DNA from: Echinarachnius parma | Lineage: Eukaryota > Echinodermata > Echinoidea > Clypeasteroida > Echinarachniidae | Direction of reading: 5' to 3' | DNA: 64,000 nucleotides | NCBI GenBank assembly: GCA_037951105.1 | Contig: JBAMJV010002965.1 | Location: forward strand, 1 to 64,000 | In this document: positions 5,148 to 60,818 of the stretch, in pieces | Layout of the letters: every line of letters begins with the position of its first letter | Position numbering within the stretch: the first letter of the stretch is position 1 | Position numbers and translations under genes: made by a program | The notes under the pieces: model-generated | What the model was told of the DNA's origin: nothing | The model's input: only the letters and a program-made list of their open reading frames with translations | Database searches by the model: none

Positions 5148-8100
5148 ATGCCAAGCAAGCCGAATCTTGACAAGGAAACATGGCGATGGACAGAAAAAAC
5201 GAGTCCAGCGGAGGTGAAAGATGAGCATCTCAAGATTGCATACCGCGTCAACCTTCCAACTTGCAGAGCTTCATGCAGGTGAAAAGATGACTGAAATCAA
5301 ATTTTTTTAAATGGCATAATTTGCATGTCTTAACTATATGTATATTCAATGTTAACCTTGCAATGGTAATATCAGTAGATGCTACAGAAATGGACAGGGC
5401 AAAGTCTAAAGACTAAAGACAAGTAAAGAAGATAACAAGTTTTTTAAAAAGAAAGAAATTGGAATTGTGAGTGTGACATTTGATTTTGAATTTGTGTTAT
5501 TTGATTTTGTCATTCTTGTTTGTTTGAATTAATTGCAATTGTCTGACATTGAGATGATTGACATGATCAAGATTACAAATACAAGTGCGAGAAGGTTGAA
5601 ATATTTACATACGATCAGCGCTGCGTATGATACATAAATTACTAGTTTGATTATTTATTTTGCATTGCAATAAATTACATGTCGTCATTGAAAATTAGGT
5701 GCCCGCTTGCTAACGGCACGCTGATCGTCCTCACAAATCAAATGAGGACAAATCGCATCTGCAAAAGTGAGCCCCTTGACATGGGATCGCTCTCATATTT
5801 AGGGATATGCATTAACCAGGGCTCCACACTTACCTTTTGCAAGTTTGTGGCATGCAGTGGCCCAGTCGGGCCAGTGAAATAATTACCTCCCCTTTTCTGG
5901 TGGCCCGAAACGAAAATTTACTGGCCCGAAAGTTTTATTTGAGGAGTATTTGAGGAGTAAACTTTTTACTATTCAAAATATTACTCTTTCCTGATCAAAC
6001 AAGTGATTATAGATGAAGCATGACATGGAAGAAAACAAGATTTTTTTCATTTTGTCAATGTCGGGTTGAAAATCTGCTTGCCCGATCTGGCCACCAAAAT
6101 ATGACTTTTGTACATTTTTACTGGCCCTGGGCTACCTGATTGATAACAATCCTTTTTTTACAGCTAATTTTTGTTTTTTAAATGCATCTTTCAGGAAGAA
6201 CTACAATACCAGGGCAACCCCAACTGTCTGGGTAACTTCAGAGAGAAGGAGTGGCTGAATGACAGCAAGGTCCAACACCGGTATCACTATCAGATAATTA
6301 GTAATTTTACATTTTGTACTTGTGAATGTGAAATTCGATACTAGAATCCTGTACAATGTCATTCAATCTTATAAAATTTGTCTTTATTTTGTTTACCTTT
6401 CAGGAGGAACTGCAAGGGCAACCCCAACTGTCTGGGTAACTTGGGAGAGAAGGAGTGGCTGAATGACATCCAAGATGAACACTGGTATCAGATGGATGAT
6501 CCAGAGGAGGAGAAGAGACAGAAGGTAAGAAGATTCTCTACCAAAGCATGCCCACGACTTGGCATGCATGACTAAAAGTACCGATTTGATATATATACAA
6601 ACAGCATAGATCATCAGTTCTTTTTGCCATGCATGCCAAGTCATGGGCACGCGTTGGTAGAGAATGTTAGAAGATTGTCACAGGGCTCTAAAACAAACGA
6701 CGCATTGGACATAGTGTGGCAAGATTGGTAGAGAATGGTCTTTCCAATCAGAGAGATCCAGAGTTCGTCCCTGCGTTTGTCCTTCAGAAAGACAATTAAT
6801 CCACTATTGCTGCCCCCCGTACCCAGGTGTATAAATGGTGACCTGGTAGGAGTTAGGAGGTGAAAGCCTTCATGTGAAGGATCTTGCCAATGCACATGAG
6901 CTGCATCCAGGAATGCTCCCTAGGGAGTAGAGATAGTGCACACATCATGTGCAGGCTGGCATTGTATCTTCTGACTGGGGTAATAATAGTGTATAGCATC
7001 TAGAGATGATATAGTCACAGGCACTAGGGTGTGGTAGGAAATGTATAGTATCTAGACAAGTTGATGGCTAGCAGGCACATTGTACACTGTAAGACCAGGA
7101 AATTGTGTGTCTTATTCAAGTTTATAAGTATTTATATTGTTTGGATTTATATTTATAATTATTTCACTTTTATGTATACAAATTTGAAATAAAATAAATT
7201 AAAGATTACTGGTATATTCATAGGACATGACTAAAATTCCTACAAACATCAAAGCAGCAATGTTCTAATTGATTTCCCACTGAGATTTAGTGATTCTTTA
7301 GAGATTTTTGTATTACATATTGCTTACAATACACGATTACAATGTTCTTCCTTTCAGAATGAACTGGTTGGACTGAAGAATCTCGGGGCAACTTGCTATG
7401 TGAACACATTTCTCCAGGTTTGTATTGATCTGTATTCTAAATAGAGGTGTCGATTTCGGGAGTATTTCCCTCCCGGGACTCGCGATAATTTTTGGGGCGA
7501 GTCACAGGTACCCGAAATTTACCCATTTGTTGATTTCGCTATCGGCATGTCACGCCACTGAGTGCATGAACACAAAAAGGACAGAAAAGAAAATGGGAGT
7601 GGGCAGATAATTCGGGCGCTCAAAGAGGGAAAAGGGAAAGAAAAGAAAATGAGAGTGAGCAGATAACTCGGGCGTTCAAAACGGGGACTTTTGCTTTTTT
7701 TTCGGGATATCGAGTATCGATTTTTGCGCCCGGGACCAGGGTACCCGTGACTCGTCAACAGCACTAATTCTAAATATGAGTTCACACTTCACAGCATAAC
7801 TTTGAATGATTAGTGCTTAGGCAAAGTACTCATAACTATGTGTCATAGTTTTATCCTCTAGAGGCAGTATTTCATATCATGTTCTAGAATGAGATGCCAA
7901 ATGTTCAGACAGGGCATGCGTTAATTATTTTGAAATTGTCATAAACATGTTTATATACAAAATATGTAATCCATTTAGATTGTGTATCATTTTGATAATT
8001 TATACACAGATGTAACATACACAAAAATAAGCTTGTGGTACTTGGACATGCCACCGAGCATGGTGGCTTTAATAGCGGTTAGGGTGTCTGCCTCATGCAC

Positions 8101-60818: not shown

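Follow-up and report, generated by a model that had tools for sequence, protein, structure and literature searches.

Fourteen coding exons of two genes lie beside partial copies of themselves in this locus, which raises the question of whether exons are a target of duplication here or are caught in passing by a process that acts on all DNA. The window, i.e., the whole 64-kb stretch analysed, is contig C2964 of a 1.2-Gb genome assembled in 14,790 contigs. It contains the following genes, together with one long microsatellite.

5148-40982, + strand: USP48, 25 coding exons modelled
60135-49013, - strand: SDHB, 8 coding exons modelled (numbered with an S, e.g., S3, S4, and S6)
47399-47470, - strand: tRNA-Ala (AGC) gene
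62391-62729: TAGA microsatellite, ~84 units, 99% matches

The gene identities proposed in the earlier note agree with matches in Pfam and the PDB. Specifically, spliced pieces of USP48 matched UCH and ubiquitin models; for SDHB, the matches were to Fer2_3 and Fer4 models and to solved structures of succinate dehydrogenase iron-sulfur subunits (best E 4e-145). Modelling of SDHB in the window did not recover its first exon.

Partial exon copies in the window

Copies were searched for by sensitive self-alignment of the window after microsatellite masking, and near, direct repeats were kept. Partial copies were found close to 14 of the 33 coding exons of USP48 and SDHB. The list of exons is identical to that of the earlier note, which had given the total as 35. 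The copies are in direct orientation and closely spaced, i.e., local and head to tail. Near-direct matches alone touched 10 of the 33 exons at E<1e-3 (12 at E<1e-2), and the links are individually weak for exons 15 (E 0.012), 24 (0.002), S3 (0.033), and S4 (0.005). One Markov-shuffled window yielded 0 tile matches compared with 176 in the real one. In the window alignments, copies with an identity of at least 80% exist for 28% of the coding bases.

A DNA search of the genome with positions 25100-26760 as query (40 of 66 candidates scored) returned the window itself, one further close match, contig C5696 (86-89%), and otherwise short weaker matches, most of which fall on a single query stretch of ~110 bases. 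SDHB exons S3-S6 are likewise present on C5696, in unchanged order. This contig is most likely the other haplotype of the locus, the alternative reading being a recent segmental duplicate. The copies are listed below together with their state on C5696.

6098-6286, + strand: copy of exon 2 (6404-6524); acceptor and first 87 of 121 nt; exon part 87%, intron part 67%
16160-18131, unstranded: long intronic direct repeat; two ~0.9-kb copies 1.1 kb apart, 97-99%, with a TGTT microsatellite in each
19951-20061, + strand: copy of exon 7 (20138-20262); 26 nt of intron, acceptor, and first 85 nt; exon 99%, intron 85%; not found on C5696
20062-20111, + strand: filler of 50 nt, CAT-rich, between this copy and exon 7
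25475-25631, + strand: copy of exon 13 (25133-25327); downstream, 3' part and donor; exon part 89%; three such on C5696
25689-25789, + strand: remnant copy of exon 14; 74%; remnant also on C5696
25791-26520, + strand: three copies of exon 14 (26574-26743); unit ~237 bp, donor decayed, 89-91%; none of the three on C5696
28689-28747, + strand: weak copy of exon 15 (29193-29354); acceptor and 37 nt; E 0.012; also on C5696
30132-30698, + strand: three copies of exon 16 (30787-30971); acceptor and 43-96 nt; unit 155-184 bp, 85-88%; two on C5696
33114-33505, + strand: two copies of exon 19 (33636-33752); acceptor and 74-81 nt; 93% and 85%; two on C5696
35054-35190, + strand: copy of exon 20 (34583-34758); downstream, last 99 nt and donor; GAT-rich surroundings; 92%; also on C5696
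36238-36813, + strand: two copies and a short third of exon 22 (36864-37063); acceptor and 16-107 nt; 79-88%; collinear block on C5696
38141-38591, + strand: three copies of exon 23 (37931-38065); downstream, 3' part or most of the exon and donor; unit ~200 bp, 75-84%; six on C5696
39307-39500, + strand: two fragments of exon 24 (38745-38922); one with donor (71%/87% for the pair), one internal; collinear block on C5696
42253-42541, unstranded: tandem duplication without an exon, an intergenic example; unit 151 bp, 90-91%
54370-54418, - strand: copy of SDHB exon S6 (54049-54165); acceptor and 28 nt; stretch common to C5696
55293-55527, - strand: two copies of SDHB exon S4 (55611-55754); 3' part and donor region; 93-bp unit; by probe, two units here and four on C5696
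57854-58210, - strand: acceptor array of SDHB exon S3 (56394-56452); ~5 nt of exon per acceptor; adjoins the exon on C5696

The long intronic repeat at 16160-18131 may be a mobile element, a recent duplication, or an assembly repeat. No exact source was found for the 50-nt filler beside exon 7, the best matches (70-78%) lying in the TCA-rich tract at 20283-20567. A CATC/CATT microsatellite lies between the two exon 19 copies. In the assembly, the reading frame of exon 15 itself is disrupted by one base, and the exon on C5696 is one base shorter; this is either an allelic lesion or an assembly error.

With respect to the part of the exon that is copied, the 14 families comprise eight of acceptor type (exons 2, 7, 15, 16, 19, 22, S3, and S6), five of donor type (exons 13, 20, 23, 24, and S4), and one whole-exon unit, that of exon 14, the donor of which has decayed. 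The earlier statement that copies usually include the acceptor is thus weakly borne out (8 versus 5, p 0.58). Copies of acceptor type are found upstream of their intact exon and those of donor type downstream, a position that follows from the duplicated segment having one end inside the exon. The functional exon is the last of its series in 9 of 14 cases, as had been remarked before, and since its position depends on which of the two splice sites the unit includes, the directional process considered along with that remark is unneeded. In 13 of the 14 exon families, the aligned copies contain a single splice site or none. For random units of the observed sizes, 32% of the exon matches are expected to span both splice sites, compared with 1 of 14 observed (p 0.03, presuming that the visible copy boundaries are the original ones), which suggests that whole-exon duplications are purged. 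The intron part is about as similar as the exon part in the copies of exons 14, 16, 19, 22, and 23, as expected of duplication at the DNA level; it is clearly less similar in those of exons 2, 7, 13, 20, and S6, as slower decay of exons predicts.

Duplication density and possible exon preference

Families of local tandem duplications were counted by an identical procedure in the 64-kb window, in twenty 10-kb loci surrounding other USP genes (200 kb), and in eight unselected 5-kb loci (40 kb). The counts were 16 in the window, 91 around the other USP genes, and 11 in the unselected loci. The window and the unselected loci do not differ in density (p 0.84). The USP loci have a higher density than the window (p 0.02), and their excess over the unselected loci is not significant (p 0.14). 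Expressed per 10 kb from 50-bp tiles, the values are 3.1 families for the window, 4.5 for the unselected loci, and 5.1 for the USP loci, and at least one family is present in seven of the eight unselected loci. Since the unselected and USP loci are similar or denser, the duplication density of the window is ordinary among the sampled loci. The premise that normal genes rarely show such copies fails for the loci sampled in this genome, and the equal density elsewhere that the earlier note had named as the mark of a general duplication tendency is largely what was found (11 families in 40 kb unselected versus 16 in 64 kb). Among the other USP genes, the same HMM start, that of the first UCH exon, was matched two to three times within ~800 bp on contigs C1448, C6322, C2646, and C254; these repeated matches are tandem exon copies.

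Whether exons are preferred was assessed against circular shifts and random placement, in bins of identity, and with weighting for decay. At E<1e-3, the exons touched in the window, 10 of 33, compare with 5.1 expected by circular shift (p 0.006), and those in the other USP genes, 14 of 28, with 10.4 expected (p 0.09). If duplicate exon matches are left unmerged, the latter become 19 of 34 versus 12.4 expected (p 0.014). The pooled test, which comprises 61 exons only, 28 of them known just as HMM segments, gives 24 of 61 versus 15.6 expected, a ~1.5-fold excess (p 0.0035). Divided by identity, the pooled exons touched number 11 of 61 versus 7.8 at 88% or more (p 0.12), 11 versus 4.8 at 78-88% (p 0.0037), which is above the prediction of decay bias, and 10 versus 7.9 below 78% (p 0.23). 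At the level of families, 9 of 16 in the window lie on exons versus 4.4 expected (p 0.010), a number that rises to 11 of 16 when the arrays of S3 and S4 are taken to derive from exons; for families within genes, the figures are 9 of 14 versus 5.2 (p 0.026). In the part of the window from 25 to 39 kb, all six families touch exons.

Such an excess has to be read against the different rates at which exon and intron copies decay. Between the window and C5696, 26 of 1526 exon sites and 241 of 5688 intron sites differ, a rate ratio of 0.40, from which it follows that a pair of exon copies is detectable ~1.43 times as long as a pair of intron copies. Slower decay of exons is sufficient for the overall excess (~1.5- versus 1.43-fold), and weighting by 1.43 brings the window's test on families to p 0.09. 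Some scope for a genuine exon preference is left by the 78-88% identity bin and by the six families at 25-39 kb that touch exons. Exons as the target of duplication, as the earlier note had it, are therefore not established, the excess being near the prediction of decay bias and the density equal elsewhere.

The strongest competitor of duplication in passing is a process linked to exons, in which a positioned nucleosome, gene-body methylation with its repair, or transcription would cause breaks or nicks near exon borders and so raise the duplication of exons above the general rate. The family and pooled exon counts, the intermediate identity bin, and the cluster at 25-39 kb all speak for it, as does a unit size close to one nucleosome repeat. 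We nevertheless consider it unlikely, because density in the window is no higher than in unselected stretches, the overall excess approximates the slower-decay expectation and weakens once weighted, the youngest pairs alone show little (the bin at 88% or more), and the duplicated exons are no poorer in CpG than the rest.

The observed/expected CpG ratio is lower in exons (0.55) than in non-coding sequence (0.69). Exon methylation, read from CpG depletion, was rejected as a simple link to duplication since the trend runs the opposite way (0.64 in duplicated exons, 0.45 in other exons).

Unit size, probable local origin, and turnover

Unit sizes were taken from the 50-bp tiles, an earlier histogram having shown arrays with a step of 52-68 bp only at twice the step. 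The tiles delimit 140 families in the 304 kb of window, USP, and unselected sequence. Among the 82 two-copy families with a unit of at least 90 bp (locus L014, a paralogue of L011, being left out), 53 have units of 120-210 bp; the expected share is 18% under a log-uniform and 34% under a 1/x-squared distribution. By sample, this size class accounts for 9 of 15 such families in the window, for 39 of 57 around the USP genes, and for 5 of 10 in the unselected loci. A size peak is evident around the USP genes; in the 40 kb of unselected loci it is less marked. In size, 120-210 bp would correspond roughly to a nucleosome with its linker.

Most families (104 of 140) mainly do not match other sampled contigs; 79 of these have a unit of at least 90 bp, and 55 of the 79 fall at 120-210 bp. 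Families also present on other sampled contigs number 5 of 20 in the window, 29 of 102 in the USP loci, and 2 of 18 in the unselected loci, and the background share of bases found on other contigs is 0.23, 0.26, and 0.14, respectively. As the shared fraction is about that of the background, most duplications look local. The idea that the units were brought in by mobile elements or satellites and not formed in place could draw on the 36 of 140 families that overlap sequence on other sampled contigs, but with this share near background and the exon copies derived from neighbouring host exons, it is very improbable.

Copy number differs between the window and C5696 in 6 of the 13 exon arrays compared, which are those of all copied exons but exon 2. 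The copies in the window and on C5696, respectively, are 1 and 0 for exon 7, 1 and 3 for exon 13, 3 and 0 for exon 14, 3 and 2 for exon 16, 3 and 6 for exon 23, and 2 and 4 for exon S4. The remnant of exon 14 is common to both, and the copies of exons 15, 19, 20, 22, 24, and S6 are found in both at the same places. All six differences concern exon arrays, nearly every array in the compared stretch being exon-linked anyway. The differences in copy number indicate that turnover goes on, and with the older copies common to both versions, the claim of a continuing process as opposed to one event is upheld. Short-range duplication that is widespread and still under way can be taken as established.

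At exon S3, the probe gives four matches in the window and two on C5696, though aligned blocks cover both, and an extra 164 bp on C5696 is no copy of the unit. On C5696, the acceptor array lies directly beside exon S3, and in the window 1.36 kb (56474-57833) absent from C5696 intervene; the link of the array to its exon is strengthened by this adjacency. At exon 7, the sequence upstream of the window's copy runs on C5696 straight into the intact exon. This is either the state before duplication or the result of loss by exchange between copies, the latter being possible because the two copies in the window have four differences in 26 intron bases.

Outside the exon arrays, the tandem-like differences of at least 20 bp in 19,969 window bases comprise microsatellites (CATC, 100 bp; TCA, 33 and 40 bp), a GAT-rich stretch of 91 bp, and a few short AT-rich ones. 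Of the larger length differences outside the exon arrays, 15 were compared with their flanks, and none is as a whole a copy of its flank (low-complexity filter on); among them are one 1.25-kb piece of C5696 with 116 bp at 71% to its left flank and another with inverted matches only.

Further length differences were observed. About 1.4 kb of the window (27220-28620) are almost wholly absent from C5696 and contain a reverse-transcriptase-like fragment (PF00078 at 27466-27672), likely a polymorphic insertion. Between exons 8 and 9, C5696 has ~2 kb without counterpart in the window. Contigs C6105 and C8375 carry the same series of CCT-type chaperonin exons, with one intron ~745 bp different in length, and are likely a further uncollapsed haplotype pair.

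Merged haplotypes or reads could produce false tandem copies, and both the apparent uncollapsed haplotypes (C2964/C5696 and, alike, C6105/C8375) and the 97-99% identity of the repeat pair at 16160 and 17255 would fit such an assembly artefact; it is hardly credible, since the exon parts of the copies are 1-29% different from the exon, copies end inside exons, and the old copies at matching places on C5696 disfavour it. Functional tandem or mutually exclusive exons are equally hard to credit: the three exon 14 copies retain open frames and acceptors, but the copies are short of one splice site or carry a degenerate donor, a stop occurs in one exon 16 copy, and copy number varies between the window and C5696.

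Proposed mechanism and related systems

The probable explanation is that DNA is often and continually duplicated in tandem over short range, in units that frequently measure 120-210 bp. The process would act in genic and unselected sequence and catch exons in passing. With one coding exon every kilobase or so, exons would be caught regularly. A unit with one end in the intron and the other in the exon would leave the exon intact and add a truncated copy carrying a single splice site, which, not being defined as an exon, would presumably be tolerated, drift, and decay. A unit spanning the whole exon would be spliced in and mostly purged, as the single case among 14, versus 32% expected, suggests. 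Once formed, arrays would grow and shrink, probably through unequal exchange. Direct orientation, intron copied along with exon, and the partial nature of the exons argue for an event at the DNA level, and the first duplication may arise by fill-in of a staggered break with end joining or by template switching. The exon 20 copy lies in GAT-rich DNA and the exon 7 filler is CAT-rich; nothing obvious of this kind is seen at exons 2 and 14, so that microsatellites are no general feature.

In a bolder variant, the germ line would duplicate nucleosome-sized stretches at a high continuing rate with a real, chromatin-set preference for exon borders, introns serving as an archive of ghost exons; a positioned nucleosome or exon methylation would be the source of paired nicks at these borders. 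This variant strikes us as quite unlikely.

Duplication in passing has relatives among known processes. Intron gain by tandem duplication is said to involve duplicated segments containing splice sites; it differs in that here the copy sits in the intron beside an intact exon and the coding sequence appears unsplit. Vaughn and Bennetzen (2014) reportedly derived small tandem duplications from the repair of staggered breaks. Two papers tie small tandem duplications to breaks with overhangs that are filled in and joined (PMC8355091; PMC5730883). These duplications resemble the present ones in being head to tail, in unrelated places, and at the DNA level, and differ in size, with insertions of <100 bp in PMC8355091 and units often of 120-210 bp here. 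Tandem exon duplication covers ~2% of exonic bases in humans and 0.08% in the fly (PMC9013439). The human, fly, and worm cases described there likewise include unannotated exon-like copies inside a gene's own introns; they differ in extent, 28% of coding bases at 80% identity or more being involved here (by a different method), and the copies here are mostly partial. In the purple sea urchin, an account of the Sp185/333 (SpTransformer) immune gene family describes GAT repeats at duplication edges (PMC5103432). That system shares with ours an echinoderm host, allelic mismatch, and GAT repeats at edges (cf. exon 20), and differs in that whole immune genes are duplicated there as opposed to exon parts of housekeeping genes and ordinary introns here. 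No pattern of this kind appeared in titles or abstracts among the matches listed, in a coverage that largely omits subscription journals. 

If it acts genome-wide, local tandem duplication of 120-210 bp would be a leading source of structural variation in this animal, of the sort by which the two versions of this locus, home to two housekeeping genes, differ. A steady supply of spare splice sites and partial exons would result, from which new exons, alternative splicing, and changes in introns could arise, and the narrow unit size makes the mutational mechanism open to testing. Annotators should be cautious, since tandem "exons" in such genomes may be ghosts.

As a separate observation on this genome, the COX1 gene on contig C14600 contains 12 in-frame TGA codons and is stop-free under genetic code tables 5, 9, 13, and 24. 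Tables 9 or 24 give the residues expected of COX1 at ATA and AGA, and table 9 reads its single AAA codon as asparagine, which suggests an echinoderm or hemichordate; the gene resembles the COX1 of sea urchins.
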